Of a stretch of DNA of 64,000 nt, positions 7,717 to 26,086 are shown one piece after another. The notes beneath the pieces are model-generated. The model was not told the origin of the DNA. It worked only from the letters and a program-made list of their open reading frames with translations, and did not search any database. Where the stretch lies: positions 62,001 through 126,000 of the forward strand of contig NZ_WESC01000002.1 of assembly GCF_009184905.1 (NCBI RefSeq). Reading direction: 5' to 3'. Numbering within the stretch: the stretch's first letter is position 1; the number at the start of each line of letters is the position of its first letter. The DNA is from Parvibaculum sedimenti (GTDB taxonomy: Bacteria > Pseudomonadota > Alphaproteobacteria > Parvibaculales > Parvibaculaceae). The position numbers and the translations under genes were made by a program.

Positions 7717-8961
7717 CTAACGACCGCTAGTTGGGATCTGATTGAACGGCACGGCCTTGTCGACCCGGATATCGGCCGGAAGCCCCAGCACACGTTCGGC
7801 GATGATGTTACGCAGAATCTCGTCCGTGCCGCCTTCCACGCGGGTCGCCGGCGAACGAAGCAGCATGGCCTGGAAGCGTGCGCTTGCCGCCGCCTGTCCG
7901 GGCGAGAGAAGCGCCCCGGCTTCGGCCTGCAGGTCGAGCGCCATCATGGCAATTTCCTGCATGGCTGAACCGGCGACGAGCTTGCCGATCGAATTTTCCG
8001 GTCCGGGGACTTCACCTTTGGATAGTGCCGAGATCGAACGGAAGGCCGTGTATTTGAGGCCACTTGTCCGCACCGCAAAGGTCGCGAGCTTCGAGCGCAC
8101 CGCCGGATTGTCGATGGCCGCGCCGTTGTCGGTCTCAAGCGAGCAACAGAAGTCGAGAAGCTCGGGGAAGCCCGTGGGCATGCCCGAGCCGATCGACAGC
8201 CGCTCATTCATCAGCGTCGTCAGCGAGACGTTCCAGCCATCGCCCACCTTGCCGAGGCGCTGGCTGTCGGGAATGCGGACATCGGTGAAATAGACTTCAT
8301 TGAAGCCCGACTGACCGTTCACCTGCTTGATCGGACGGATCTCGATGCCGGGCGATTTCATGTCCAGAAAGAACATGGTGAGGCCCTTGTGCTTCGGCAC
8401 GGTCGGGTCGGTGCGGGTAATCAGAATTCCGTAGTCGGAATGCTGTGCGCCGGAGGTCCAGATCTTCTGACCGTTGACGACCCAGCCGTCGCCATCGCGC
8501 TCAGCCTTCGTCCGCAGACCGGCAAGGTCGGAACCGCCCGCCGGCTCGGAGAAAAGCTGACACCAGATGTGTTCGCCGGCAGCAAGTGGCGGCAGATAGT
8601 TGCGCTTATGCTCTTCGCTCGCATAGGCCATCATCGTCGGTCCGCACATGCCGTGACCGATTATGAAGAGCGAGGAGAGCGCGGCATAGACACCCTCTTC
8701 CTGCTGCCAGATCACGCGCTCGATGGGCGATGCGCCACGGCCGCCATATTCCTTCGGCCAGTGAAGGCAGGCCCAGCCCGCGTCGAACTTTTTCTGCTGC
8801 CACTCCTTGGAAACCTTGATGATGTCCACGCCTTCGAGCGCCGTGTGGCCGAAGCCGGAGGTCTTCAGGCCGGCCTCATACTGCTTCGGGGCATTGGCGG
8901 CGATCCAGCTGCGCACTTCCTGACGAAAAGCTGCTTCCTGCGGTGTATCGTCGAAATTCAT
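7717..8961 (-). CDS. Acyl-CoA dehydrogenase, catalytic-type subunit
   Basis: This FAD flavoenzyme of the acyl-CoA dehydrogenase superfamily carries out the alpha,beta-dehydrogenation step of beta-oxidation. In its 414 residues are the mid-domain flavin/substrate signatures QLFSEPAGGSDLAGL and GQKIWTSGAQHSDYGI, and the C-terminal GGTDEILRNIIAERVLGLP, the G-T-x-E-I region that contacts FAD. It lies 30 nt downstream of a second, shorter homologue that lacks the last motif. Such pairs form alpha2beta2 heterotetramers in steroid side-chain degradation (ChsE1/ChsE2, FadE28/29); heteromer formation here is inference. The substrate is unknown; branched or polycyclic acyl-CoAs are possible. Confidence 0.88.
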   Translation of the reverse strand: MNFDDTPQEAAFRQEVRSWIAANAPKQYEAGLKTSGFGHTALEGVDIIKVSKEWQQKKFDAGWACLHWPKEYGGRGASPIERVIWQQEEGVYAALSSLFIIGHGMCGPTMMAYASEEHKRNYLPPLAAGEHIWCQLFSEPAGGSDLAGLRTKAERDGDGWVVNGQKIWTSGAQHSDYGILITRTDPTVPKHKGLTMFFLDMKSPGIEIRPIKQVNGQSGFNEVYFTDVRIPDSQRLGKVGDGWNVSLTTLMNERLSIGSGMPTGFPELLDFCCSLETDNGAAIDNPAVRSKLATFAVRTSGLKYTAFRSISALSKGEVPGPENSIGKLVAGSAMQEIAMMALDLQAEAGALLSPGQAAASARFQAMLLRSPATRVEGGTDEILRNIIAERVLGLPADIRVDKAVPFNQIPTSGR

Positions 8962-12075: not shown

Positions 12076-13869
12076 TCAGCCGGCCACCGCCTTGTCGCGC
12101 TCGAGATAGCGCCGCCAGCCGCCGAAGGACGTGATGTCCTCAGCACCTGCGAGGCCACTCGCCTCGCAGAGGAATCCCTTCACCTTGCGGCCACTGGCGA
12201 GATCTACCGTCCCGATGACGAGCGGCTGCGGCACCCCGGCCAGGAAGCTCCCGACCTGCGCCCGCGGAAGACGCCAGACTTCGAGTTCGATCGCCGCGCC
12301 CGTCTCGCCCTTCACCAGACCCGGACGGAAAGGCGGCCCGCCCGCCAGCGCATAAAGCGTGTAACAGGCCGCTGTCTTGGTGCGCTCGATGAACATGCCG
12401 CCGCGCGAGGTGAGTTCGTGATTGAGCGGCAATCCGCTCATATGCGCGCCGACGACGGCAAGCTCGAGAAAACCTTCATCCGCCTCCGCCCCGCCGAGGA
12501 ACGGCGCGCCCGGCGCAAGGCCGAGCGCCGCGCCGAAGCGCGCACCGATCTCGATGAGCCGCGCTTCGGAGAAGGCGGGCGCCGCCAGCGTGATACCGAA
12601 GGGAAGCCCCGTCGTTCCGATACCGGCGGGCACCGCAAGACCCGCCATATCGAGCAGGTTCATGAAGTTCGTATAGGTGCCGAGACGCGAATTGAGCTTG
12701 ATCGGCTCGGCCTCGAGTTCGCTCACCTTGTAGGTCGTCGGTGCCGTCGGCACGACGACGATGTCGAGACCCGCAAAGAGTGTCCGCACCTTGCGTTGCA
12801 GGGCTTGCAGCTTGTGCATCGCCTCGAATGTCTCGACGGCGCTCCGTGTGCGACCACCCAGAACGATCTTCGCGACCGTCGGGTCGCACTCGGCCTCATG
12901 CGCCTCGATGAACGAGCCCACCGCCACAGTGCGCTCCGCGACCCAGGGTCCCTCATAGAGCAGCAGAGCCGCCTCAAGGAAGGGCGCGAAATCGATCCGC
13001 CGCGCGCGGCCGCCAATGCTTTCGAGACGCTGCACGGCTTCATTGAACAGGCGCTCTGCTTCTCCGTCACCGAAGAAGACGAGATCCTCCGGCCGCGGCA
13101 CTGCGAAGGTGAAGCTGCCGCCCGGAACGAAAGGCGCATCGGCAAGCCGCGTCCGCGAATATGGATCTTCGTCGTCATAGACCGCGGCCTGCTTGAATAC
13201 TTCCGCCGTATCTTCCGGCGTCAGCGCAAAGATCGAAATGCAATCAAGCGAACGGCAGGCGGGAAGTACCCCCCGCGTCGAGAGAAGTCCGCGCGAAGGC
13301 TTGAGCCCGGCGATGTTGTTGAAGGCGGCAGGCACACGGCCCGATCCCGCCGTGTCGGTGCCGAGCGAGAAGGATACGAGTCCCGCCGCGACGGCCACCG
13401 CAGAGCCAGAGCTTGAACCGCCCGAGATGTAATCGGAATTGAACACCGAACGCGGCGCGCCATGCGGCGAGCGCGTGCCGACGAGACCCGTCGCGAACTG
13501 ATCGAGATTGGTCTTGCCAATGAGAACCGCGCCCGCATCGAGAAGACGCTGCACGGCATAAGCGCTTTCCTTCGGCTCGAACGCATAGGCCGGACAGGCG
13601 GCCGTCGTCGGAAGTCCCGCGCAGTCGATATTGTCCTTCACCGCGAAGGGCACACCGAAAAGCAGTAGCTTCGCCCGCGCCGCGGCGGGCAGCGCGTCGA
13701 GCGCGCGCGCACGAGCCAGCACCTCATCGGCAGGCGCGCGGGCGATCCACACCGCCGGATCGGCATAGGCATCGGCGCGCTTCAGCGCCTCTGCCGCCAC
13801 ATCCTCGGCACGAAGACCGCGCGCATAGGAAGCCCGAAGTGAGGGCAGAGAAAAACAAAGACCCTTCAT
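12076..13869 (-). CDS. atzF: Allophanate hydrolase
   Basis: Allophanate hydrolase splits allophanate into ammonia and CO2. The 597-residue enzyme has an N-terminal amidase-signature domain with Lys78 in GVPFAVKDN, the GGSSSGS loop near 150-156, and nucleophile Ser176 in DTAGSGR. A C-terminal domain of about 120 residues (from about 475, starting [16 protein letters not shown]) is the decarboxylating domain typical of AtzF. The start at 13869 is set by a 4-nt ATGA overlap with the carboxylase stop, so the two are translationally coupled. It is the last gene of the guanidine/urea carboxylase operon. Confidence 0.93.
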
Positions 13870-16800
13870 GCTGTCGCCTCCAGCGGCAGCAGCGTCACCA
13901 ACGCCTGCCCCGCCTGTACCATTGTTCCCGGTGCGCAATGCACCTCATGCACCCGGCCGCGCATGGGCGACCGCATTTCAATTTCCATCTTCATGGATTC
14001 GAGCGTGACCAGAGACTGATCCTGCGCGACCTCCTCGCCCAGCTCGACGCTGATCGCCCAGACATTCCCGGGAACGCTCGCCTCGACGAGACGCGCCCCC
14101 GGGGGCAGCTCGCCGATGGATTGCGGCGGCGGTGCCTCGGGCTCCGACGCCTGCATCGAAAGTCCACGCTCTTCCCAGCGCTGCCGTTCCTCTTCGAAGG
14201 CGCCACGTTGCACCGATCGGAAGCTTTCGATCTCGCCCTCATTGTCCTTGAGAAAGGCAAGATAGTCGCTGAGCCGAAAACTCGACTCCTCCACCTCGAC
14301 CTCATAACGCCCGTGTGGAAAGGCATCGCGGATGTCGAGCAGTTCCTCCGACGAAACGGGAAAGAAGCGGATGCGATCGAAGAAGCGCAAAAGCCACGGC
14401 GAGCCCGCCTCGAAATTCTTCGTCTCGCGCCACGTGTTCCACATCTGGAGAGTGCGGCCGAAGAGCTGGTATCCACCGGGCCCTTCCATGCCGTAGACGC
14501 ACATATAGGCTCCGCCAATGCCGACCGCGTTTTCCGGCGTCCAGGTGCGCGCCGGATTGTACTTGGTTGTCACAAGACGATGACGCGGATCGAGCGGGGT
14601 TGCCACCGGCGCGCCGAGATAGACGTCGCCGAGACCGAGCACCATGTAGTCCGCATCGAAGATGATGCGCTGGACATCCTCAATGCTTTCGAGTCCGTTG
14701 ATACGGCGGATGAACTCGATATTCGACGGGCACCAGGGCGCATCTGGATTGACCAACGTCTGGTACTTGCGCACAGCCTCCTGCGCCGCCGCGTCATTCC
14801 AGGAAAGCGGCAGTCGCACGATACGGCTCGGAACCTCGATATCCCTCGTCGCAGGCAGCTGCCGCTCGACCTCTTCCACCGTGGAAAGGAGCCGCTTCAA
14901 CGACAGCCGGTCTGGATCGAAATGGATCTGCAGCGAGCGGATACCCGGCGTCATCTCGATGATGCCGCGGACGCGCTTTGCCGCAAGCGCCGTCATCATC
15001 GCATGGGCGCGGAAGCGCAGCGCGAAGTCGAGCACCATCGGCCCATATTCGATGAGCAGATAGTCGTCACCCGCGCGGCGATAGGTGACCGCGACATCGA
15101 GATCGTCGATGCGGCCGAGCACGGCATCGCTCTGGACGGCAGGCGCCTGAATGCGTGAACCGTGATGCGGGCGCTTCAACGTCGAGAGCCAGCTCGCCTC
15201 CATCTTGCGCAGCGCCTCGGCTTCTTCATCGCTCACGCGGCGGAAGCGAACCTTGTCACCCGGCTTCAGCTGGCCGATCTTCCAGAGATCGGCCTTGGCA
15301 ATCGTCGCCGGGCAGACGAAGCCGCCAAGGCTCGGCCCGTCGAGCCCCAGAATGATTGGCATGTCGCCCGTGAAGTCGATTGTGCCGACAGCATAGGCGT
15401 TGTCATGGATGTTGGAGGGATGAAGCCCCGCCTCGCCGCCATCCTTGCGTGCCCATTTCGGCTTCGGCCCGATGAGACGGATGCCCGTGCGCGCCGAATT
15501 ATAATGAACCTCGTAAGTGAAGCCGAAAAGCGTCTCGATGTCCTCGTCGGCGAAATAATCGGGTGCGCCATGCGGACCGTAAAGTGCGGCGAATTCCCAT
15601 TCATTGACGAGCGGCGGCCTGTCGAGTTCTGGCAAGGCCTCCTGGTGAGCGGGCGCCTTCGCACCGGAGCGGTTGACGCGCAACACGTCGCCCGTCCTGA
15701 GCGCGCCCGTCGCATGGCCACCGAAACGGCCAAGCGTGAAGGTCGAACGCGAGCCGAGATATTCTGGCGCATCGAAGCCATTGCGAATGGCGAGATAGGC
15801 CCGCTGCCCCGCCCCCTCAATGGCGCCGATTTCAAGCGTCTGGCCGCGCTTCACCTCGAAGGCCTGCCAATGAGGCATGGGCTCGCCGCTGATCTTCGCC
15901 TGCATATGCGCGCCGGCAAGAACAACGGTCGCATCGGTGCGGAAATGCAGCGTCGGCCCTGTCAGCGTCATTTCAAGCGCGGGCGTGCCCGGCTCGTTGC
16001 CGACGAGACGGTTCGCCAGCTGAAAGGAAAGCGAGTCCATCGGCCCCGAGGGTGGCACGCCGACATTCCAATAGCCGACGCGTCCCGGATAATCCTGAAT
16101 CGTCGATTGCGCGCCCGGTGCCACCACGTCGATCGTTGCCGGCCGGAAGTCGAAATGGGCGAGCGACGACGTGCGCATCGCACCATCAAGGAAGGTCCAG
16201 GCGCCCGCGAGTTGGCGCAGGTAATCGAGATTGGTCTCGATGCCATAGACGGCGCTCTGATTGAGCGCCGAGGAGAGCTTCGCCACGGCTTCCGCGCGGG
16301 TTGCGCCCTTGACGATGATCTTGGCGAGCATCGGATCGTAGAAGGGCGTGACCTCGGTTCCCGTCGCGATCCAGCCATCGACACGCACGGCTTCGGGAAA
16401 ACTCACCTGCGTGAGCAGGCCCGACGAAGGCTGGAAGTTCCGTGCCGGATCTTCAGCATAGAGCCGCACTTCGATGGCGTGGCCCTGCGGCGGGCGCTCA
16501 TATTGTGCGAGATCACCGAGATCGCCGGAGGCTTGCCGCACCATCATCTCGACGAGATCGAGGCCGGTCACCTCCTCCGTCACCGGATGCTCGACCTGAA
16601 GCCGCGTGTTCACTTCGAGGAAGTAGAATTTCTCTTCCGCCGCATCATAGATGAACTCGACGGTCCCCGCAGATTCGTAAGCAACGGTTTCGCCAAGACG
16701 CACGGCCGCCTCCTGGAGTGCGCTGCGCACATCATCCGCCAGATTGGGCGCTGGTGTTTCTTCGATCACTTTCTGGTTACGGCGCTGCGCCGAGCAGTCG

Positions 16801-17477
16801 CGTTCACCAAGCGCGATGACCCTGCCCTTGCCATCGCCAAATATCTGCACCTCGATGTGGCGCGCTTCCGCGACGAACTTCTCAAGGAACATGCCGCCGT
16901 CCTTGAAGTTCGCAAGGCTGAGGCGCTGCACCGTTTCGAAGAGACGCGGAAGTTCCGCCGCCGTCTTGCAGAGCTGCAAGCCGATGCCGCCGCCGCCCGC
17001 CGTGCTCTTGATCATGACGGGATAGCCGATGGCACCCGCACGGGCGAGCGCATCGTCGAGGTCGGTAACGAGCGGCGAGCCCGGCAGCAGCGGCACGCCA
17101 CTCTTCTCGGCAAGCTCGCGCGCCGTATGCTTCAACGCGAAGGCCAGCATGTGTTCGGGACGCGGGCCGATAAAGGCAATACCCCTGTCGGCCAGCGCCT
17201 GCGCGAAGCCGGGGTTCTCGCTCAAAAATCCATAGCCCGGATGCACGGCTTCCGCGCCGGTCGCAATCGCAGCCGCGATGATCGCATCGACATCGAGATA
17301 GCTCTGCGCGACCACGGCGGGGCCAACGCAGACCGCCTCGTCCGCCAGGTCGACATGCGGCGCGAAGCGATCGGCTTCGGAATAGACAGCGACAGAGCTG
17401 ATGCCCATGCGGCGGAGTGTGCGAATGACGCGGCAGGCGATTTCGCCGCGGTTCGCAACAAGTACCTTCTTGAACAT
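13866..17477 (-). CDS. Biotin-dependent urea carboxylase family enzyme, probably guanidine carboxylase
   Basis: The 1203-residue enzyme contains a biotin carboxylase domain (about 1-450, starting [19 protein letters not shown], with ATP-grasp loop [12 protein letters not shown]). A KipA/KipI-type carboxyltransferase region follows (about 475-1110, with [18 protein letters not shown] and [19 protein letters not shown]). A C-terminal biotin carrier domain carries the biotin lysine K1163 in [10 protein letters not shown]. The family carboxylates urea to allophanate. Homologues next to DUF1989 genes and ykkC riboswitches were shown to carboxylate guanidine, and both markers are present here, so guanidine is the likelier substrate. 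The start at 17477 follows GGGAGGAAGAC. Coupled to allophanate hydrolase downstream. Confidence 0.9.
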
Positions 17478-17494
17478 GTCTTCCTCCCGGAACG

Positions 17495-18121
17495 TCAGCC
17501 GTTCCAGATAAGCGTGCGAATGGGCGTGGGGTTGAAGTCGTTGCAGGGATTGTTGACCTGCGGGCAGTTCGAGATGACGCACAGCACGTCCATCTCCGCC
17601 CGAAGCTCCACATAGTCTCCCGGCTTCGACACGCCATCGACAATGGCGAGCGTCCCGTCCGGCTCGATCGGCACATTCATGAAGAAGTTGATGTTGCTCA
17701 CGAGGTCGCGCTTGGTGAGCCCGTGCTTCGACAGTTCGAGAACGAAATTGTCGCGGCAGCTATGCATGTATTTCGTGTGATGTCCGAACCGCACGGTGTT
17801 CGCCTCGGCGCTGCATGCACCCGCGGAGGTATCATGTGCGCCGCATGTGTCGCCGATCACAGTCAGCATCACATTGCCCTCGTTCGAGAGAAGCTTCGTG
17901 CCTTCGGTGATGTAAGGCGCGCCTTGGGCGCGGATCGTGTCCTGCGCGCTGTAGCGCTCGACGGGATCGGCCATGCTGTAGAAAAGCGTATCGACGGCCT
18001 GGCAACCTTCGAGGTCGACAATGCGCAGCACCTGCCCCTTCAGGATCAGATGAGACCAGGGCTTGTTGGCCGGGACAATTTCATCATGAATGACGGTGTT
18101 GGGTTCGCGGTTGTTGGACAT
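17495..18121 (-). CDS. DUF1989 protein, urea carboxylase-associated protein 1 (probable carboxyguanidine deiminase subunit)
   Basis: The 208-residue protein belongs to DUF1989. Motifs include [35 protein letters not shown] with several Cys/His, and [33 protein letters not shown] at the C terminus, which suggest a metal site. In the characterised guanidine pathway two DUF1989 proteins form a heteromeric carboxyguanidine deiminase (CgdAB) that yields allophanate. This is the shorter partner; the longer lies 11 nt upstream. The ATG at 18121 (MSNNREPNT) was chosen because family similarity starts there, although the frame is open further upstream. It sits 17 nt before the carboxylase gene. Confidence 0.88.
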
Positions 18122-18132
18122 TTTCTCGGCCC

Positions 18133-18957
18133 TCACTCGAAAATCGCATCTGTATTGTCGAAACCGCGTGTCGCCTCTTCCGAGGAGGTACGGCAGAAAT
18201 CGTCGGCGGCAGGCGACGGCGATTTCCAGAGAGTGAGATCGACAGGCTCCGGTGCATAGGCACCGGTGCCGAGGGGATGCGGGCAGTTCGAGAGGAAAAC
18301 GAGAATGTCCATCTCGGCGCGGAGATCGACATAATCGCCGGCGGCGGGCTTCTCGTCCTGCCAGACGAGCTGACCGGCGGCGTCCACGCCAACCGGCGCA
18401 AAGAGCGTCAGGCAAGGCGGAATGTCCGCCTTGGAAAGCCCATGCTTCGCCGCAAGCAGGATGAAATTATCGCGCGTATTGCGGAGCGTGGTGTCAGAAT
18501 ATTTCTGAACATTCGTCGCCGCCGTGGACCCCCCCACGATAGCGTCATGACGGCCGAACGTGTCGTCAGTGATCGACGCGAGGACACGCCCCATGTCGGA
18601 ATAGAGAAGCTTTCCGCGATAGAGGCTGGCGCTCCACTGGATCTTCACCGTGTCGCCCGCGTTGAAGCGCTCGGTCGGGTCTGCGGCGCGATAGAGCAGA
18701 ACCGAAACGCCCTGCGTCGCGGCGGGCGCGACGATACGCAGCGTTTGCCCGTGCTTCACGATGCCCGACCAGCCCCAGCCGCCCGGCAGCGTCTCGCGCT
18801 TCAGAACCAGATCGGTCGGAATTTCTTTCGCGTTGCCCGTCGCCTCGCTGAAGTCGCGGCGCCTCGCCTTGCCGCGCGCATAGAGCTCTTCATAGCGCGC
18901 GCGTTGCGCCGCATAGCGATCGTGGTTTCCATCCGAGGTCTGAGATGTATCGGCCAT
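18133..18957 (-). CDS. DUF1989 protein, urea carboxylase-associated protein 2 (probable carboxyguanidine deiminase subunit)
   Basis: A 274-residue DUF1989 paralogue of the next gene, with the same pattern: GQTLRIVAPAATQGVSVLLYRAADPTERFN, ITDDTFGRHDAIVGGST, and YVDLRAEMDILVFLSNCPHPLGTGAYAPEPV. The N terminus carries an extra charged segment (ARYEELYARGKARRRDF). It is taken as the second subunit of the carboxyguanidine deiminase. The start at 18957 (MADTSQT) follows GGAGAAAGAG. A 99-nt gap with three small hairpins separates it from the ABC ATPase gene, while only 11 nt separate it from its partner. Confidence 0.88.
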   Translation of the reverse strand: MADTSQTSDGNHDRYAAQRARYEELYARGKARRRDFSEATGNAKEIPTDLVLKRETLPGGWGWSGIVKHGQTLRIVAPAATQGVSVLLYRAADPTERFNAGDTVKIQWSASLYRGKLLYSDMGRVLASITDDTFGRHDAIVGGSTAATNVQKYSDTTLRNTRDNFILLAAKHGLSKADIPPCLTLFAPVGVDAAGQLVWQDEKPAAGDYVDLRAEMDILVFLSNCPHPLGTGAYAPEPVDLTLWKSPSPAADDFCRTSSEEATRGFDNTDAIFE

Positions 18958-18977
18958 CTCTTTCTCCTGCTTCAGAC

Positions 18978-19047
18978 GGCACCTCGAGGAGGTGCCGAAA
19001 ACCTGGCCGTCCAGGCAAAAACTCAATCCACCGGGTCGTCCCGGCGG
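18978..19047 (-). other. Three consecutive hairpins between the ABC ATPase gene and the DUF1989 pair
   Basis: Three stem-loops fill this gap: CCGGG/CCCGG around 19031-19044, CCTGG/CCAGG at 19002-19015, and a perfect 8-bp GGCACCTC/GAGGTGCC stem at 18978-18996. On the minus strand the first is followed by GTTTTTG and the second by TTTTCG. They could reduce read-through or stabilise an mRNA end between transport and enzyme genes. Confidence 0.5.
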
Positions 19048-19056
19048 AGACGAAGA

Positions 19057-19854
19057 TCAACCGGCGACGGCGACCTTCGGCATTGCTTCTGCTGTCTCCG
19101 CCGGAGACGTCACTGCACCGGAAGGCGGCACGATCTTGCGCATGACGGGAAGATCGAAGGTGATCGTCGCGCCATAGGCTTCGAGTTCCTCCGGCCGCGT
19201 CTTTCGGCGATCGAAGGCGATAACGCGCGTTCCGAGCTTGAAGGCTTCGGAGAGATCATGCGTCACCATGAAAATAGTCATGCCCGTCTCGCGCCACAGC
19301 GCGAGCAGAATCTCATGGACCTCCGCGCGAATGCCTGGATCGAGCGCACCGAAAGGCTCGTCGAGGAGGAGAAGCTTCGGACGCTTCACCAATGCCTGCG
19401 CGATGGCGAGACGTTGCTGCATGCCGCCGGATAGCTCGGCGGGATATTTGCTTTCCGCCGCTTCGAGACCGACCGACTTCAGCATCTCGCGCGACATGTC
19501 GCGCGCCGTGCGGCGCTTCTTGCCGAAGAGACGGCCGAGAACGGGGCTCTGCCCAAGCTCAAGACCGAGCATGACGTTCTGAAGCGCGGTCAGATGCGGA
19601 AAGACGGAATATTTCTGGAAGACGACGCCACGATCCGGCGAAGGCTCTGCCTGCAGCGGCACGCCATCGACAAGGATGCGGCCCTGACTGGGCTTTTCAT
19701 CGCCGAGCAACATGCGCAGGAATGTGGACTTGCCGCAGCCCGACGGACCGACGAGCGAGATGAATGATTGCGGCGCCGTCTCGAAATTGATGCGTTCGAG
19801 TACGGTCTGCTTACCGTAGGTCTTCCAGACATTCTCAACGGTAACGCGGGTCAT
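19057..19854 (-). CDS. NitT/TauT-type ABC transporter ATPase (guanidine/urea carboxylase region)
   Basis: The 265-residue cytoplasmic ATPase shows Walker A GPSGCGKST near 36-44, Q-loop VFQKYSVFPH, ABC signature LSGGMQQR, Walker B LLLLDEPFGALD and switch histidine VTHDLSE. It matches the NitT/TauT/SsuB branch that imports nitrate, sulfonates and small nitrogenous compounds. An Arg/Lys-rich insertion (LGRLFGKKRRTARDM) lies before the signature. The ribosome site GAGGAG precedes the ATG, and the permease gene ends 10 nt upstream. With the permease and the binding protein at 21144 it should form the importer feeding the carboxylase pathway. Confidence 0.93.
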   Translation of the reverse strand: MTRVTVENVWKTYGKQTVLERINFETAPQSFISLVGPSGCGKSTFLRMLLGDEKPSQGRILVDGVPLQAEPSPDRGVVFQKYSVFPHLTALQNVMLGLELGQSPVLGRLFGKKRRTARDMSREMLKSVGLEAAESKYPAELSGGMQQRLAIAQALVKRPKLLLLDEPFGALDPGIRAEVHEILLALWRETGMTIFMVTHDLSEAFKLGTRVIAFDRRKTRPEELEAYGATITFDLPVMRKIVPPSGAVTSPAETAEAMPKVAVAG

Positions 19855-19864
19855 GGCTCACTCC

Positions 19865-20683
19865 TCACATATGGCCGCGATACATCCAGCCGAACGACAC
19901 TCGCCTGAGGCCGCGCAGCAGGAAGTCGAGAAAGAAGGCAAGGAAGGTGATCCAGGCGACGTAAGGCAGGATCACATCCATCGAGAGATAGCGCCGCATC
20001 AGGAAGATGCGGTAGCCAAGACCGGATTCGGCGGCGATCGCTTCGGCTGCGATCAGATAGAGCCAGGCGGGCCCAAGCGACAGACGGACGGAGTCGATCA
20101 GGCGGGGCAGCATCTGCGGTACGACGATGCGGATGATGATCTGCCATGTTGACGCGCCGAGTGTCTGCGCCTTGATGATCTGCTCATGTGGGATTTCTTC
20201 AACGCGCTGCGCGAGGTCGCGAATAATGAAGGGCACAATACCGACGAAGATCAGCACGATCTTCGCCGTCTCACCGAGGCCGAAGGTGATGAAGAGGATC
20301 GGCAGGATCGCAAGCGCCGGGATCATCGACACGACATTGGTGAAATTTGCCAGCGTCGCGCGGACATAGGGAATGAGGCCCTGCAACACACCGATGACGA
20401 AGCCCGCAAGCATCGCGAGGCCGACGCCGATAGCGAGACGCTGGAGGCTCACCATCGTGTCGAGAAGCAGCAGATAGTCGCCCGACCGAAGATCCGGCAC
20501 GAATGTCATTCGGTTGATCGCGTCGAGGATCGTCGACCATGCCGGCAGCAGCTTGTCGGTTGGATTGATGGCGAGCCGCGCCTGCGAGGCAAGCGCATAG
20601 GCGAGGAAGGCCAGAAAGAAGGGCGACGCAGCAAGAAGAAGCCGCGAGAGAATTTCAGGCCTCTGGTTGATAAGACGGCGCAT
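19865..20683 (-). CDS. NitT/TauT-type ABC transporter permease
   Basis: The 272-residue inner-membrane permease has about six hydrophobic helices (for example LAASPFFLAFLAYALA, IGVGLAMLAGFVIGVLQGLI, IALVLIFVGIVPFIIRD-like segments) and the EAA loop VEEIPHEQIIKAQTLGASTW that docks on the ATPase. The start at 20683 is preferred over an in-frame TTG at 20761 because GGCGAGGTGAGC precedes it. The stop of an 18-codon leader ORF lies just 2 nt before it, suggesting translational coupling. It is the first structural gene after the guanidine-I riboswitch, so the rest of the operon should follow that control. Confidence 0.92.
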   Translation of the reverse strand: MRRLINQRPEILSRLLLAASPFFLAFLAYALASQARLAINPTDKLLPAWSTILDAINRMTFVPDLRSGDYLLLLDTMVSLQRLAIGVGLAMLAGFVIGVLQGLIPYVRATLANFTNVVSMIPALAILPILFITFGLGETAKIVLIFVGIVPFIIRDLAQRVEEIPHEQIIKAQTLGASTWQIIIRIVVPQMLPRLIDSVRLSLGPAWLYLIAAEAIAAESGLGYRIFLMRRYLSMDVILPYVAWITFLAFFLDFLLRGLRRVSFGWMYRGHM

Positions 20684-20685
20684 GC

Positions 20686-20742
20686 TCACCTCGCCGCCAA
20701 CTGGCGGGAGAGCAGCGGAGCGGAGAGCGAGACGATATTCAT
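20686..20742 (-). CDS. 18-residue leader ORF coupled to the permease gene
   Basis: A short frame from ATG 20742 to TGA 20686 encodes MNIVSLSAPLLSRQLAAR. It has a strong Shine-Dalgarno GGAGG 7 nt before its ATG, and its stop lies 2 nt before the permease ATG, so ribosomes finishing it could restart on the permease. Its Shine-Dalgarno is complementary to a segment of the preceding hairpin (9 of 10 positions). I do not recognise the peptide. Coding status rests on its ribosome site and position only. Confidence 0.45.
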   Translation of the reverse strand: MNIVSLSAPLLSRQLAAR

Positions 20743-20744
20743 AG

Positions 20745-20825
20745 CCAGTCCTCCAGACCAACGGGGTCGTTACAACTCGGAGGATTGGCGTGCACGGCGG
20801 CGTGTAATGCCAATCCTCGCATTAC
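20745..20825 (-). promoter_or_regulatory. Candidate expression platform of the guanidine riboswitch
   Basis: Three mutually exclusive helices can form 3' of the aptamer. First, GTAATGC (20825-20819) pairs with GCATTAC (20810-20804). Second, GAGGATTGGC (20818-20809) pairs perfectly with GCCAATCCTC (20789-20780). Third, CCAATCCTCC (20788-20779) pairs at 9 of 10 positions with GGAGGACTGG (20754-20745), which includes the leader ORF ribosome site. No T-run follows any stem, so control of translation is more likely than termination. Which helix dominates with guanidine bound is inference. Confidence 0.6.
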
Positions 20826-20829
20826 GTCC

Positions 20830-20938
20830 GTCTCCCGGGCTTTTGTCCCGCCGTGTACCCGGCCGCTGTTCACCGACCGGGTTGCGGCTCTCGGACCAGC
20901 GCTTCCAACCGTAACGGTGGAAACCGGAACCCTAGCCG
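20830..20938 (-). ncRNA. ykkC: Guanidine-I (ykkC) riboswitch aptamer
   Basis: Read on the minus strand, this stretch carries the hallmark ykkC blocks in order: GGCTAGGGTTCCGG near the 5' end, CTGGTCCGAGAGC in the middle, and ACACGGCGGGACAAAAGCCC then GGGAGA at the 3' end. Variable stems lie between them. Guanidine-I riboswitches bind guanidine and turn on exporters or guanidine-degrading enzymes. It lies about 145 nt before the permease ATG and so should control the permease-ATPase-DUF1989-carboxylase-hydrolase operon. Identification is from conserved primary sequence; I did not run a covariance model. Confidence 0.92.
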
Positions 20939-21042
20939 CTGCCGAATCCAGAGGGTGCAAGCGCCGGGCCAGTCGGCGAGGGGCGGATTCGCTGGCGGCG
21001 GGACGGCACTTGGGCGCACTCACGAGAGTTGCCGCCTTAAAT

Positions 21043-21058
21043 TTGAGCAAATGCTCAA
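21043..21058. promoter_or_regulatory. Inverted repeat TTGAGCA-AA-TGCTCAA, putative operator
   Basis: Perfect 7-bp arms flank two bases about 105 nt upstream of the riboswitch 5' end and 37 nt beyond the terminator of the binding-protein gene. The shape resembles TetR-family operators such as the RutR site (TTGACCA-N2-TGGTCAA) but with a G/C swap. It may control transcription of the riboswitch operon in addition to guanidine sensing. The regulator is not identified. Confidence 0.45.
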
Positions 21059-21095
21059 TTCGCGAACACCAAAAAACAATGCAGGCAATAAAATA

Positions 21096-21126
21096 CCCCG
21101 CCTCCCGGATACGCAGGGAGACGGGG
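21096..21126 (-). terminator. Rho-independent terminator after the substrate-binding protein gene
   Basis: On the minus strand CCCCGTCTCCC pairs with GGGAGGCGGGG (one G-U) around a 9-nt loop, followed by TATTTTATTG. It lies 18 nt past the stop codon at 21144. It separates the binding-protein unit from the riboswitch operon downstream. Confidence 0.8.
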
Positions 21127-21143
21127 CGACACAGTCACTACAA

Positions 21144-22226
21144 TCAAAGCTTTCCGTCGGCCGCGAGCTGCATATAGGTCGGGTCAATCCTGAGCTTCAC
21201 ATTCGCCTTGTCGCCGACGACCTTGCCGCCGGGCAGTTCGATGCCGACAAAGCCCTTGTCCTTGGCCTTCTGACCAAGAAGCCCGTGACCGAAGCTGAAC
21301 TCCTGCACGTCACTGGCGATCTCGCCCATGGTCGGGCTTTTCAGCAGTTCAACGGCCTTGGCGGGGTCATAGTAGAAGCCGGTGGTCTTCACCTGACCGT
21401 CGAAGTCGGCAAGATTGGTGCCCGATGCCGCCGCCATGAAGGTGCGCGCATCGATGCCTTCCTTGTCGTTCTTCTGCATGACGCCGAGCGCTTCATACCA
21501 GGCGCCAGTGAGCGCCTTGCCGAACTCAGGATGCGCCTTCAGCGTGGCCGTATTGGCGACGACGATGTCCTGAATCTGACCGGGGAGTTTCGAGCTATCG
21601 AAGACTTCGGAGACGTCAGGCATGTTCCTGATCTGGCTGGTCGCCGGGTTCCAGGCAACCAGCGCCTTTACTTCCGGTGTGCCGAAGGCCGCGACGAAAT
21701 CGGCGTCGGCGATATTGGCCGTCGTAATGTCGCTTTCCTTGAGACCAGCCTGCTTCATCGCGAGCCAGAGCATGTAGTGCGACACGGAATACTGCACCAG
21801 ATAGACCTTCTCGCCCTTGATGTCGGCGAGCGTCTTGCCCTTACCCTTGAGGAAGATCGCGTCGTTGCCATTCGTATAGTCGCCGAGAATGATCAGCGAC
21901 GAGTCGACACCACCGGCAGACGGAATGGTGAGCGTGTCGATGGTCGTGTCGGCCACGGCGTCGAACTGGCCGGCCGTGTACTGGTTGATCGACTCGACAT
22001 AGTCGTTGATCTGAACGAGCTCGATCTTGATCCCGTATTTGTCAGCCCACTTCTTCAGAATGCCGGACTTCTCGGCATAGGCCCAGGGCATGTAGCCCGT
22101 GTAGATCGACCAGGCGAGTTTGAACGTCTTATCCGCGGCGGCGGCGGGCTGAACGGCGGTAACGGCCATCAGCGCGGCAGCCAGAAGCGCGAATACGGTC
22201 TTTCTTAATCGCGGCAGCCTATTCAT
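21144..22226 (-). CDS. ABC transporter substrate-binding protein of the urea/guanidine carboxylase region
   Basis: The 360-residue periplasmic protein starts with a Sec signal peptide (MNRLPRLRKTVFALLAAALM, cleavage after AAA near residue 30). The mature part begins DKTFKLAWSIYTGYMPWAYAEKSGILKKW, the NitT/TauT periplasmic-binding fold. This type is recurrently found beside urea carboxylase genes. The start at 22226 follows AAAGGA. The gene should supply the ligand-binding part of the importer at 19057-20683. It is placed oddly: upstream of the riboswitch and closed by its own terminator, with the dioxygenase gene 84 nt upstream. Ligand, urea or guanidine or a larger guanidino compound, cannot be read from sequence. 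Confidence 0.9.
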   Translation of the reverse strand: MNRLPRLRKTVFALLAAALMAVTAVQPAAAADKTFKLAWSIYTGYMPWAYAEKSGILKKWADKYGIKIELVQINDYVESINQYTAGQFDAVADTTIDTLTIPSAGGVDSSLIILGDYTNGNDAIFLKGKGKTLADIKGEKVYLVQYSVSHYMLWLAMKQAGLKESDITTANIADADFVAAFGTPEVKALVAWNPATSQIRNMPDVSEVFDSSKLPGQIQDIVVANTATLKAHPEFGKALTGAWYEALGVMQKNDKEGIDARTFMAAASGTNLADFDGQVKTTGFYYDPAKAVELLKSPTMGEIASDVQEFSFGHGLLGQKAKDKGFVGIELPGGKVVGDKANVKLRIDPTYMQLAADGKL

Positions 22227-22310
22227 GATCTGTCCTTTCAATGGGCGGAGCGTGTCCGCGATCCCGTAGGGTTGAGGCGTTTCCGCTTCTGTCGTTTCTC
22301 TATAATTCGT

Positions 22311-23381
22311 TCAGGCGCGTTCCTTGCGCCCGAAGAAGGTTTCGCCGGTCGTCTCGGATGCCGGAATGGCGACGAGCCCTTCCTTTTCAAGCTTCCTGAG
22401 ATAGGCGAAAGTCCGCATCGTCTGTGCAAGAAGGTGGTCGCCCGCGACATAGGCCGGATAGGTGCGCGTCGCGTCCTGCTCGATGAATTGGGGCAAGGGC
22501 TCGACCACCGTGTCGTAATCGACCGAGCAGAAAAGCGGGAAGGAGTAACGCTCGTAAGCGACCCGTCGCACACGATGCGCGGTGGCGATGAAGCGGCCAT
22601 TAGTCATGGCTTCCAGCATGTCGCCGATATTGATGACGAAGGCGCCCGGCACGGGCGGCGCATCGACCCAATTGCCCTCGGCATTGACGACCTCAAGGCC
22701 CGGCGCCGTGACATGCAGGATGGTGAAACACTCATAGTCGGTGTGCGGGCTGATGCCGAAATTGCTGGAGCTGCCGCCGATCGCGGACGCGTCGAAACCT
22801 TCCGCTTCGGGGTAATGAACGAGGCGGAGCTGCGACGGCGGTTTGGTCAGATAGCGATCGAAATAATTCTCGTCGAGACCGAGCGCCAGCGCAAAGCCGC
22901 GGAACAGCGTACGGCCCAGCGAGGTCGCCGCCTCGTAATAGGCGTAGATATCTTCCTTGAAGCCCTCTACCTCGTTCGGCCACTGGTTCGGCCCGAGAAG
23001 GCGATAGCCCTTGATGTGATCGGGATCGTCCTCGGCAAGATCGATGGAAAGATCGAAGGCTTCCTTCTTGTCGACGCTCGGCACGTCGCCCGAATAGAAA
23101 TTCTCCTCGCCCATTGGCACATAGCCGCGATGCGCGCGCGAATTTCCGATGTAATATTTTCTCTTCACGTCGTCCGGCAGCGCAAAGAAGGCCGCCGCCT
23201 TGGCCTGAAGATTTTCGATCAGTTCCGGCGCGATGGCGTGTCCCGTGACATAGAGAAAGCCGACTTCGCTCGCGGCCTTTTCCATTTCGCGCGCGACGGC
23301 TTTCCTCGCCTCAACATCATCGCCCAGAAGCGGCGCGATATCGACCAGCGGGATATGATCGAAGGCTCTGCCTTTTGCCAT
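22311..23381 (-). CDS. 2-oxoglutarate/Fe(II) dioxygenase of the isopenicillin N synthase family
   Basis: The 356-residue cytoplasmic enzyme starts MAKGRAFDHIPLVDIAPLL. It has the DIOX_N region (EVGFLYVTGHAI near 40), iron ligands H-x-D in GISPHTDYECFTILH and the distal His in TAHRVRR, plus the RYSFPLF region whose Arg would bind 2-oxoglutarate. The start at 23381 follows GGAGACGAAA; an in-frame ATG at 23393 that overlaps the upstream stop is the alternative. Plant relatives of this family hydroxylate homoarginine and release guanidine, and this gene sits next to a guanidine-type transporter and operon. A guanidine-releasing role is therefore attractive but unproven. Confidence 0.88.
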   Translation of the reverse strand: MAKGRAFDHIPLVDIAPLLGDDVEARKAVAREMEKAASEVGFLYVTGHAIAPELIENLQAKAAAFFALPDDVKRKYYIGNSRAHRGYVPMGEENFYSGDVPSVDKKEAFDLSIDLAEDDPDHIKGYRLLGPNQWPNEVEGFKEDIYAYYEAATSLGRTLFRGFALALGLDENYFDRYLTKPPSQLRLVHYPEAEGFDASAIGGSSSNFGISPHTDYECFTILHVTAPGLEVVNAEGNWVDAPPVPGAFVINIGDMLEAMTNGRFIATAHRVRRVAYERYSFPLFCSVDYDTVVEPLPQFIEQDATRTYPAYVAGDHLLAQTMRTFAYLRKLEKEGLVAIPASETTGETFFGRKERA

Positions 23382-23392
23382 TTTCGTCTCCA

Positions 23393-24238
23393 TCAGAAGG
23401 CGCTCCTGACTTTTCCAGCGGCGGGGAATGCATCGAGCGCGCCTTGTGCGTCGAGGATTTTCCATGATTGCGCAACATGATTCCCGTCGGCATCGACGTC
23501 CGAAAGCACGATCGTGCCGGAGGCCTTCGCCGCCCAGACAGGATCGATGCGCGCTTTCTCGCGGAAGGGAAGACTCGAGCGCTGAATGATCCAGCCCGCG
23601 CCAGTCACGATGCCTTGCGAGATTTCACAATCCACGAGGTCCTGCGCGTCCGTTAGGCTCGCGGCTCCTTTCACGCATTCCTGCAGATGCAGTCCCGCCG
23701 GAACCGCTGCCCCACGCGCGCGGGCATACATGAAGAGAGAGCCAAGCCGCATCAGATAGGCGCGGGTGCCATCGGCCGGATCGTCGAGCCGCAGCGCGCA
23801 AACAGGATCGAGATTGACCGGCTCGCGGTGCCAGTGCTCGATATAGGGAATGTCCTTCCCCTCCTCGACCATCATGTCCGGTTCCATCCAGAGACGGCCC
23901 TGATCGGAATAGATCGCCTGGGGCTGAAAATCGATCTCGCGCCGCCACTCGAAGAAGCCGTCGGCATAGTGAAGCTCGCCCGCGAAACCTTCCTGTGTCG
24001 CCAGCCAGTCAAGTTGCTCAGGCTGGAGCGCGCGCAAATTCTCGACGCCGCGAAAATCCGGACGGTCGGCAGGCTGACGCAGATCGAGATAGTAGCTCGG
24101 GCCCTGCATCCAGTTGACGAAGGTCGTCCGGTCGCTGCGGCCATCGGGCCAATCGATGAGAGAGCGGCTCCAGAGGCCCGCAAGGGCCTCAATGGTCGGC
24201 TCGCGCTTCGGTTCGATCCGTAGTCCGATATTCGCCAT
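23393..24238 (-). CDS. Uncharacterised protein coupled to the dioxygenase gene
   Basis: I do not recognise this 281-residue protein with certainty. It is rich in Trp and acidic residues and has no signal peptide or membrane helix. Two halves appear to alternate beta-strands: the first contains LAGLWSRSLIDWPDGRSD, WMQGPSYYLDLRQP and EWRREIDFQPQ; the second contains YLMRLGSLFMYARARG and GAGWIIQRSSLPF. The pattern of a 'W-x-R ... LDLR ... W-x-x-x-ID' barrel is reminiscent of lipocalin-like or HRI1-type double barrels, at low confidence. The start at 24238 follows GGAAGAGACGA. Its stop touches an ATG of the dioxygenase frame (TGATG at 23391-23395), so the two are likely co-translated. Confidence 0.75.
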   Translation of the reverse strand: MANIGLRIEPKREPTIEALAGLWSRSLIDWPDGRSDRTTFVNWMQGPSYYLDLRQPADRPDFRGVENLRALQPEQLDWLATQEGFAGELHYADGFFEWRREIDFQPQAIYSDQGRLWMEPDMMVEEGKDIPYIEHWHREPVNLDPVCALRLDDPADGTRAYLMRLGSLFMYARARGAAVPAGLHLQECVKGAASLTDAQDLVDCEISQGIVTGAGWIIQRSSLPFREKARIDPVWAAKASGTIVLSDVDADGNHVAQSWKILDAQGALDAFPAAGKVRSAF

Positions 24239-24330
24239 TCGTCTCTTCCGATACTGCACTGCACAAAGCATGCGTCGACGAAGAGCCATAGGTGAAGACA
24301 GGAAATTCCGATGCCGTCCATAAATTCGAT

Positions 24331-25269
24331 CTATGGGTGCTCGCCGAGGCGGCCCAAAATCTCATTGAGGAACAGTTCGGTCGGTGTGTCGCGCGCGTCC
24401 TGCTCGCGCGTAATGAGATAGACGTGATAGCTGGGCAACAAATCGTCGGGGAGCAGAGGATGGAGATTATGCCCCCGGTCGATTTCTTCCGCGACGCAAG
24501 TGGGCAAGAAGCCGATGCCGACGCCAAGCTCGATGAGGCGTTTCACCTCGTGCAGGTTCTCCGCAAATCCGCCCGCATGACGGCCGAGCCCGTAGCGGCG
24601 ACGGAAGCGCTCAAGTTCCTCGGGCTCGTCCTCGCCCGTCATCACGAAGGGCTCGTCGCAAAGGCTTGCAGGCTGGCCAACGGTCTGACCGAACAGCGGA
24701 TGATTGCTGCTGCAATAAAGCTGCTGGAATTCTTTCATGAGCGGCGCATAGCGAAGCCCCTCGCCCGGCGCGCTGTCGCAGGCGATGCCCACCTCCGCCT
24801 CGCCAAGCTTCAGCGCCTTGACCACGCCACGCCAGGCCACCACGTCGAGGCGGATCTCGACGCCGGGATGAAGCCCGTGGAAAGCGGCAATGGCGGCATC
24901 GAATTCCGGCGAAACGATGCTCGACATGATCTTGATGTTGATGACGCCCTCGACGAGGTTTGCGGCACGAGCCACCTCATGCGGCGCGGCGCGCAGCGCA
25001 CCCACCATCGCCTCGCAGAGCGGCAACAGCGCGCGGCCTGCCGGCGTCAGTTCAATGCCCTGACTGGTGCGGTGGCAAAGCTCGACGCCGAGATGTTCCT
25101 CGAGCCGCTTCAGGCCGGCGCTGATCGTCGGTTGCTGCTTGTTGAGATGGCGCGCCGCGGCGCTGATCCCGCCAGAATTGACGATTTCGAGAAAGAGCCC
25201 GAAGAGGTTCCAGTCGACATTGCGAACGAAATTTCGCTCGTCCGGCGGGATGAGGTTCAGCTTCGGCAT
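24331..25269 (-). CDS. LysR-family transcriptional regulator
   Basis: The 312-residue regulator has an N-terminal winged helix at about 20-80 (LFLEIVNSGGISAAARHLNK, then QPTISAGLKRLEEHLGVELC) and a LysR effector domain from about 110 (GVINIKIMSSIVSPEFDAAI). It lies upstream of the unknown-protein/dioxygenase/binding-protein genes on the same strand with a 92-nt gap, so it could regulate or be co-transcribed with them. The effector is unknown; a guanidino or amino compound is a reasonable guess from context. LysR genes are more often divergent from their targets, which makes the target uncertain. Confidence 0.9.
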   Translation of the reverse strand: MPKLNLIPPDERNFVRNVDWNLFGLFLEIVNSGGISAAARHLNKQQPTISAGLKRLEEHLGVELCHRTSQGIELTPAGRALLPLCEAMVGALRAAPHEVARAANLVEGVINIKIMSSIVSPEFDAAIAAFHGLHPGVEIRLDVVAWRGVVKALKLGEAEVGIACDSAPGEGLRYAPLMKEFQQLYCSSNHPLFGQTVGQPASLCDEPFVMTGEDEPEELERFRRRYGLGRHAGGFAENLHEVKRLIELGVGIGFLPTCVAEEIDRGHNLHPLLPDDLLPSYHVYLITREQDARDTPTELFLNEILGRLGEHP

Positions 25270-25342
25270 GGCTTTTCGCGCCTCTTTTTCCGGGCCCCCG
25301 GCGTTAGAGGGAGCAAGTTCCGGACCAGATGGGGCGCCGCCC

Positions 25343-26086
25343 TCAGAACTCCCATTCCGGACCGGGGATCGCCTGATAGGCGCGGGTCAGCGCGTCCGAC
25401 CAGGATTGGCGCAAGCCCTTGAAATAAGCATCGTCGTCCTTGATACGCCGGCTGAGAGCAACCTTCAGCGCGTCGCGGCGATAGACCATGAGGTCAATGG
25501 GCAGACCCACCGACAGGTTCGAGCGGATGGTCGAATCCATGGAAATGAGCGCGAGCTTCAGCGCGTCCCCCACATCGGTCTCAAAGGTCGCGGCGCGGTC
25601 GATGATGGGCTTGCCGTATTTGTGCTCGCCGATCTGGAAATAGGGCGTGTCTTCCGTCGCTTCGATGTAATTGCCCGCTGCGTAGACCTGGAAAAGTCGA
25701 AGCTGGCCATTGCCGATCTGCCCACCAAGCAGGATCGAAACATTGAAGGTTTCAGACTGCGCTTCGAGCGAGGGCCCGTCGACCTTGTAGATCTCCCGAA
25801 CCGCCTGCCCCATCAACTGAGCGGCGCGAACCATGCTCGGCGCGGTATAGAGCGTTTCGAGCGGCTCGCCTTCATGCAGCGACAATCCCTGCTCCGTCAC
25901 GAGATTGACGATTGCCTGGCTCAGGGCAAGATTCCCCGCCGTCATGATGCCGATGACGCGGTCGCCCGGGCGTTCAATGGTGGTGAGCTTGCGGAAGGTC
26001 GAGATGTTGTCGACACCCGCATTGGTGCGCGTATCCGCCAACATGACGAGGCCGCCTCGAAGGCGAAGCGCAACGCAATAAGTCAT
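25343..26086 (-). CDS. Anbu, ancestral beta-type proteasome homologue
   Basis: The 247-residue protein starts MTYCVALRLRGGLVMLADTRTNAG. Thr2 would become the N-terminal nucleophile after Met removal, and the ADTRTNAG motif supplies the Asp typical of proteasome beta subunits; the following lysine is in FRKLTTIE. This is the Anbu (bacterial proteasome homologue) family, which assembles into helical or ring oligomers. It is the last gene of a conserved four-gene set with transglutaminase-like, alpha-E and ATP-grasp proteins. The 22-nt gap to the transglutaminase gene supports an operon. Its substrates are unknown; links to nitrogen stress and peptide processing have been proposed. Confidence 0.9.
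   Translation of the reverse strand: MTYCVALRLRGGLVMLADTRTNAGVDNISTFRKLTTIERPGDRVIGIMTAGNLALSQAIVNLVTEQGLSLHEGEPLETLYTAPSMVRAAQLMGQAVREIYKVDGPSLEAQSETFNVSILLGGQIGNGQLRLFQVYAAGNYIEATEDTPYFQIGEHKYGKPIIDRAATFETDVGDALKLALISMDSTIRSNLSVGLPIDLMVYRRDALKVALSRRIKDDDAYFKGLRQSWSDALTRAYQAIPGPEWEF

Follow-up and report, generated by a model that had tools for sequence, protein, structure and literature searches.

We analysed a window of 64,000 nucleotides (nt) of Parvibaculum sedimenti DNA, i.e. the whole stretch, taken from contig NZ_WESC01000002.1 of a 3.7-Mb genome. In it a gene for an 'unknown' protein, a dioxygenase gene and a gene for a substrate-binding protein (SBP) lie next to a guanidine-degradation operon. 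Judging from sequence comparisons, this group and the gene for a LysR-type regulator in front of it most probably form a methylguanidine-utilisation unit, lysR-mgdL-mgdH-SBP, which would feed the guanidine pathway. Behind this reading stand the order of the genes and their homologies, the catalytic residues, co-occurrence in other genomes, a conserved palindrome, a terminator hairpin and riboswitches, all of them observed. The dioxygenase and the 'unknown' protein belong to the known MgdH/MgdL pair, and their activity in Parvibaculum is predicted. The enzymes are thus an already published pair, and it is the wiring that is new. An earlier, sequence-only reading had recognised three open reading frames (ORFs) on the minus strand, upstream of a riboswitch operon, and we confirmed both the frames and the operon; the LysR gene directly upstream (25269-24331), absent from that reading, belongs to the module as well. 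The order of transcription on the minus strand is lysR, the mgdL homologue, the mgdH homologue and the gene for an SBP of family TIGR03427, and then the guanidine-I riboswitch (Gd-I) with the guanidine operon. The module comprises:

24331-25269, minus strand: LysR-type regulator, module member (Pfam HTH_1 and LysR_substrate)
24319-24335, unstranded: candidate LysR operator, palindrome CATAGAT-N3-ATCTATG (T-N11-A), 13 of 14 fixed positions (pattern match)
23393-24238, minus strand: MgdL homologue, predicted N-(hydroxymethyl)guanidine lyase (the 'unknown' protein), with D52 and R54 (alignment with MgdL; AlphaFold2 model)
22311-23393, minus strand: MgdH homologue, predicted methylguanidine hydroxylase, a 2-oxoglutarate (2OG)/Fe(II) dioxygenase (Pfam, identity to MgdH, tree)
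21144-22226, minus strand: module SBP, TIGR03427 paralogue, predicted (methyl)guanidine receptor (NCBIfam score, SBP tree)

The sequence-only reading had also noted an overlap of the first two enzyme genes. With a dioxygenase start at 23393 they share a single base (TGATG); with the alternative in-frame ATG at 23381, preceded by GGAG, the overlap would disappear.

The MgdL and MgdH homologues

As reported in PMC12508155, MgdH hydroxylates methylguanidine and MgdL cleaves the product to guanidine and formaldehyde; MgdL was modelled there as a beta-barrel, and its variants at D49 or R51 were inactive. Our reference sequences of both proteins were read from locus L066, found by searching 82 genomes of one genus (that of genome G445) for the printed mgdH primer, which gave one match. 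All four printed V. boliviensis cloning primers match this locus exactly in their gene-specific parts, and the locus shows the published gene order together with Gd-I and the guanidine-II riboswitch (Gd-II); its genome is V. boliviensis or something identical at the primer sites.

The window dioxygenase matches the Pfam domains DIOX_N and 2OG-FeII_Oxy (E 2.4e-29 and 1.1e-20) and is identical to MgdH at 173 of 347 aligned residues (50%). The corresponding values are 129 of 324 (40%) for the best paralogue in its own genome (L070), 118 of 280 (42%) for PDB 9ovh and 122 of 310 (39%) for PDB 6jyv, presumably PA4191, a name not used as evidence. In a maximum-likelihood tree of 46 rows, the window dioxygenase and MgdH share one 36-row clade (support 100/100), from which five own-genome paralogues, the dioxygenase of L051 and PDB chains 9ovh, 6jyv, 3oox and 5c3p are excluded. 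Alignments kept matches above 100 bits for the dioxygenase, 250 bits for the SBP and 55 bits for mgdL. H217, D219, H273 and R282 (numbered from the METK start) are present in all 36 rows of the clade; we take the first three to be the HxD...H iron site and R282 to belong to the 2OG site.

Two side observations concern further copies. Three loci of one genus (L058, L060, L061) carry two adjacent mgdH genes, perhaps with a second methylated guanidine as substrate. Genome G445 has a second mgdL/dioxygenase pair (L051) besides that of L057; the L057 dioxygenase falls inside the MgdH clade and that of L051, a short frame, outside it, so that the L051 pair is possibly a related demethylase for another compound.

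The 'unknown' protein (24238-23393) had no Pfam or NCBIfam match at E 0.001 and no PDB sequence match at E 1. Its closest relatives occur in Parvibaculum-like Alphaproteobacteria, and none were matched on plasmids. It is identical to MgdL at 59 of 230 residues (26%). MgdL of L066 has D at 49 and R at 51, as counted on the sequence; these align with D52 and R54 of the window protein and do not vary in any of the 40 aligned homologues; the same holds for W98, E125, Y132, E134, W136 and R175.

An AlphaFold2 model of the window MgdL homologue, built with 22 sequences, is barrel-like (predicted local distance difference test, pLDDT, 88; predicted template modelling score, pTM, 0.87), and its structural matches are HRI1 and lipocalin-like proteins, as for a beta-barrel. 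With Foldseek, yeast YLR301W (Hri1) was the sole match below 0.001 (E 1.4e-5), and structure comparison with Hri1 gave Z 14.9 over 200 residues at a root-mean-square deviation of 3.5, the next best reaching Z 11.3. Five of 13 MgdL homologues match Pfam HRI1 (PF16815) at E up to 5 (best 1.6e-6), one of the 13 (L006, genome G039) lying above the gathering score with 28.5 against 27 bits; the window protein itself has no HRI1 match in Pfam and is not placed in that family. An MgdL-family profile compared directly with yeast Hri1 was not significant by hmmsearch or hhalign, and against PDB sequences it gave three matches at E 0.9-1.1 that are not meaningful. Because the direct profile match is not significant, the link between MgdL and Hri1 rests on the fold and on the Pfam matches of some homologues. 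Given this modelled structure, there is good support for a shared fold, and distant homology is likely; more speculatively, proteins of the Hri1 fold might represent a wider class of hemiaminal lyases. In yeast Hri1, S-L-R stands at the place of the MgdL D-x-R (by eye).

Recurrence of the pair and its link to guanidine degradation

The 'unknown' protein recurs at 21 named loci, and a homologous dioxygenase is present in the same locus in 19 of them, which goes beyond chance. In a phylum sample the mgdL profile was matched in 14 of 398 genomes, and all 14 have guanidine carboxylase above the cut-off, compared with 46 of the 398 overall; counted by genus, the figures are 12 of 12 against 33 of 213. 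The hypergeometric probabilities, without kinship correction, are 1e-14 for genomes and 3e-11 for genera. The proposal that a guanidine-releasing pair is tied to guanidine degradation is supported. In a class sample, 9 of 385 genomes gave an mgdL match, and 6 of these 9 have the carboxylase, against 22 of 385 overall. Among the 21 named mgdL genomes, 15 score above the TIGR02712 cut-off for the carboxylase and one more (G398) contains a fragment at 925 bits.

The mgdL homologue lies less than 20 kb from the carboxylase in six of the 12 regions L046-L057 (L046, L047, L053, L054, L055 and L057). Guanidine riboswitches were found in L053, L054, L055 and L057 and none in L046 and L047 at Rfam cut-offs; L057 shows the published V. 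boliviensis gene order with both riboswitches. At the named loci the carboxylase is within the examined stretch in 4 of 21 (L011, L012, L020, L025), several contigs ending early. G323 (L059) and L015 contain the same module and were counted once, and the neighbourhood comparison left out G736. As a separate observation, regions L048, L049, L050 and L052 have divergent mgdL homologues together with a different ABC (ATP-binding cassette) transporter, and their genomes (G754, G453, G530 and G420) all carry guanidine carboxylase.

Predicted control and uptake: a unit beside the guanidine operon

We rejected the idea that the module is part of the riboswitch operon: it lies upstream of Gd-I, with a terminator in between, and comes with a LysR gene and a predicted operator to itself. 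The features downstream of the module are:

21095-21127, minus strand: intrinsic terminator 3' of the SBP gene, 12-bp stem, T-rich tail (folding)
20830-20946, minus strand: guanidine-I riboswitch, start of the separate guanidine operon (83.3 bits, cut-off 63)
19865-20761, minus strand: ABC permease of the guanidine operon; true start probably about 20683 (Pfam)
19057-19854, minus strand: ABC ATPase of the guanidine operon (Pfam)
19003-19047, minus strand: guanidine-II riboswitch, marginal, 5' of the first DUF1989 gene (33.0 bits, cut-off 32)
18133-19026, minus strand: DUF1989 protein UAAP1, carboxyguanidine deiminase subunit; true start probably about 18957 (Pfam/NCBIfam)
17495-18415, minus strand: DUF1989 protein UAAP2, carboxyguanidine deiminase subunit; ORF start too early (Pfam/NCBIfam)
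13866-17582, minus strand: urea/guanidine carboxylase (TIGR02712, 1870 bits)
12076-13938, minus strand: probable allophanate hydrolase (ORF; name rests on position and sequence)

A homologue of the allophanate hydrolase candidate occupies the equivalent place in guanidine operons of other genomes, and a Gd-II aptamer is found at the equivalent place in L011 and L063.

The terminator hairpin between the SBP gene and Gd-I has a folding energy of -25.9 kcal/mol (z -3.8), and 0 of 200 shuffles were as stable. It was absent from the pattern-scan list because its 9-nt loop falls outside the scan pattern, and it was found by folding. From 21000 to 25800 of the window there was no guanidine aptamer at E 1, the two sub-threshold matches on the other strand being unrelated. 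Scanning 13 carboxylase-free loci (L013-L018, L024, L027, L029, L030, L058, L060, L062) gave no guanidine aptamer at the Rfam cut-off; L019, L021-L023, L026, L028, L059 and L061 were left out of the riboswitch scans. A sigma-70 promoter scan of 19000-25450 was uninformative (1 match, mean 1.7 in shuffles).

A LysR gene adjoins mgdL in 19 of 24 assessable loci; L013 was left out for both the LysR gene and the palindrome, and L026 for the LysR gene (contig starts there). The palindrome CATAGAT-N3-ATCTATG lies at the lysR/mgdL junction, overlapping the lysR stop codon in the window, and is followed by a CATYGA-type element; palindromes of the T-N11-A type are typical of sites of LysR proteins. 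We assessed 25 loci (the window, 20 named loci, L058 and L060-L062). The palindrome stands before mgdL with 12 to 14 of 14 positions in 18 of them and with 11 in five (L011, L018, L021, L022 and L026), of which L018, L021 and L022 have no neighbouring LysR gene; it is absent at L029 and L030. In L024 (Xanthobacter), mgdL and lysR-mgdH-SBP diverge, and a second palindrome (at 8896, 13/14) precedes mgdH-SBP. Another second palindrome, in L020 (at 13085, 12/14), lies between the module SBP gene and Gd-I, and LysR may act on the guanidine operon too in that locus. Allowing at most one mismatch, the palindrome occurs once in the whole window genome, at the lysR/mgdL junction, and is present in 20 of 28 genomes, whereas the reversed control pattern gave 0 matches in the 28.

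Five of the palindrome sites away from the module were looked at in context; G388 C48:51, at a contig edge, was left out. At L095 (5774; G042 C10:190773), a perfect palindrome with the flanking element precedes what by eye is a probable ABC uptake operon and adjoins a distant 2OG dioxygenase (29.5%). At L098 (6029; G404), a 13/14 palindrome is flanked by a LysR gene other than that of the module (26% identical) and by a divergent gene, the mgdL homologue of G404 being elsewhere. The site in L099 is inside an ORF, and L096, L097 and L099 all lack a module gene in the vicinity.

The window SBP is an NMT1-like protein of TIGR03427 (467 bits, cut-off 333.9), and it is the only protein of this family above the cut-off in its genome, a second relative reaching 147 bits. 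In a tree of 30 rows it falls in a 15-member clade made up of module SBPs (100/98); the rest of the tree consists of all ten operon SBPs and five further module SBPs (L058 twice, L060, L061 and L056). Module SBPs are thus not one clade, because five of 20 sit with operon SBPs. Both types occur in one locus in L020 and at two loci in G323, and L012 has the operon type only. In G042 the riboswitch lies directly before the permease gene, no SBP gene was found in that 20-kb region, and the module has two. Since the sole TIGR03427 protein above the cut-off in the window genome is of the module type, and given the layout of G042, the guanidine-operon permease probably works together with module SBPs. 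At one aromatic position, Y45 (counted from the ATG at 22226), all 10 operon SBPs have W, all 14 module SBPs of the first type have Y (the identical row L015 being left out) and all 4 of the second have F; our guess is that this position lies in the ligand pocket. L058 has two SBPs besides its two mgdH copies, and SBP-like matches of 25-29% identity at L029, L048-L050 and L052 were not in the trees.

Proposed pathway, rival readings and known systems

In the pathway that we propose, the SBP would bring methylguanidine, and probably guanidine too since the window genome has no other TIGR03427 protein above the cut-off, to the permease and ATPase of the guanidine operon, both its ligand and its partner permease being predicted. 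MgdH, with 2-oxoglutarate and O2, would hydroxylate the methyl group to give N-(hydroxymethyl)guanidine, and MgdL would split this into guanidine and formaldehyde. The freed guanidine could then open Gd-I and would be converted by the carboxylase, carboxyguanidine deiminase and allophanate hydrolase to ammonia and CO2. LysR, presumably bound at the conserved palindrome before mgdL, would activate the unit when it senses a small molecule, for which methylguanidine or one of its products is the best candidate. The earlier idea that guanidine release trips the riboswitch still fits this scheme, as V. boliviensis Gd-I binds guanidine and not methylguanidine in the range tested (PMC12508155). The position of the module does not place it under riboswitch control. 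A bolder reading, slightly less likely than not, is that LysR would be a dedicated sensor of methylguanidine (or of the hydroxymethyl compound made from it) and that the module SBP would be a methylguanidine receptor plugging into the guanidine permease.

Several observations weigh against a methylguanidine unit of this kind. A neighbouring LysR gene is missing at L018, L021, L022, L029 and L030, and no mgdH was found near mgdL at the named loci L025 and L029 or in regions L048, L049, L050 and L052. The carboxylase does not reach the TIGR02712 cut-off in five of the 21 named genomes (G389, G393, G402, G404 and G405, a Frankia). In the class sample three weak mgdL matches lack it (G338, G307 and G070); by eye, the first is a real divergent homologue, the second a real fragment and the third false. 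The palindrome is not exclusive to the module: with at most one mismatch, nine sites lie away from it, including sites in G042, G169, G393, G395 and G404 and, in related genomes without mgdL, two in G009 and one in G143. The L070 paralogue is placed just outside the MgdH clade, and linkage to mgdL within that clade is partly a matter of selection, because, PDB chains and own-genome paralogues aside, every tree row came from a locus with mgdL. Finally, with an identity to MgdL of just 26%, the true substrate could be another N-alkylguanidine.

A rival in line with the sequence-only reading is that the dioxygenase hydroxylates arginine, homoarginine or agmatine, as do plant 2-ODD-C23 or the ethylene-forming enzyme (EFE), and that guanidine then falls off spontaneously. 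The superfamily is indeed the same and the gene lies before guanidine genes, and the best PDB sequence match of the window dioxygenase is 9ovh (E 8.2e-61), labelled ethylene/succinate-forming enzyme. On the other hand, 9ovh lies outside the MgdH clade and its EFE name is a database label, while 9eir, with the same label, gives a weak match that covers part of the protein (1.6e-19); moreover, if the products decayed by themselves, there would be little need for a dedicated MgdL that has both catalytic residues. MgdH and MgdL, the closest relatives of known function, work on methylguanidine (PMC12508155), and an arginine-type substrate now seems hardly plausible at all. It is also improbable that the pair demethylates some other methylated guanidine or N-methyl compound, such as N,N-dimethylguanidine, with methylguanidine as a side substrate. 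Identities of 50% and 26% leave room for it, MgdH also accepts N,N-dimethylguanidine (PMC12508155), and two adjacent mgdH copies exist in L058, L060 and L061; yet the family as a whole conserves the catalytic pair of MgdL and the residues around it, and V. boliviensis MgdL is reported to bring no faster decay of hydroxylated dimethyl compounds (PMC12508155).

As for the SBP, it might be the guanidine operon's own protein displaced upstream, with no role in methylguanidine uptake. It belongs to the same TIGR03427 family, and no other such protein scores above the cut-off in the window genome; five of the 20 module SBPs also group with operon ones. The 15-member clade that holds the window SBP, apart from the ten operon SBPs, and the presence of both types side by side in L020 and at separate places in G323 speak against displacement, which we consider unlikely on balance. 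Returning to the methylguanidine unit, the core idea of the sequence-only reading, guanidine release beside guanidine genes, is very probably right, and it is the substrate and the control that differ.

These results extend the MgdH/MgdL pair to Alphaproteobacteria and one Frankia, and they suggest that bacteria sense methylguanidine by protein as well as RNA. Natural sources of methylguanidine are called elusive in PMC12508155, and a conserved regulator with a defined site offers a handle on when cells meet this compound. The two SBP types provide a test case for telling guanidine from methylguanidine at uptake, and the Hri1 fold gives a biochemical lead for a yeast protein labelled uncharacterised in the PDB. 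If LysR is the sensor and the SBP the receptor, methylguanidine would count as a nutrient that has a regulon to itself, on top of the guanidine riboswitches.

Among known systems, the plant homoarginine-6-hydroxylases 2-ODD-C23 (background in PMC11018352) and EFE are of the same superfamily as the window dioxygenase and release guanidine. Their substrates differ from the one predicted for it, and the EFE-named PDB chains are outside the MgdH clade or weakly similar. We know of no dedicated lyase for either. Fungal HRI1 (yeast YLR301W, PDB 3rby, PF16815) has a fold similar to that of the window MgdL homologue, but differs in its S-L-R in place of D-x-R, and the window protein lacks an HRI1 match.

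The closest system is that of V. boliviensis. Methylguanidine demethylation operons were described from halophilic Gammaproteobacteria in October 2025 (PMC12508155; for the guanidine pathway, see PMC12186494). In that account 216 MgdL homologues were aligned, and the available text does not discuss the lysR/SBP arrangement; nor did our searches of the main texts of open-licence PMC papers find the LysR, palindrome and SBP wiring. Common to both systems are a dioxygenase of the same clade (50%), the D-x-R pair, a carboxylase operon and Gd-I/Gd-II. In V. boliviensis, mgdH-mgdL lies inside the riboswitch operon, between gca and atzF, and its Gd-II class also binds methylguanidine (PMC12508155). 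In the window, by contrast, mgdL comes before mgdH, and the pair is not part of the riboswitch unit but is accompanied by lysR, a conserved palindrome, a terminator and an SBP paralogue of its own; Gd-II precedes the first DUF1989 gene here, whereas in V. boliviensis it precedes the carboxylase gene.

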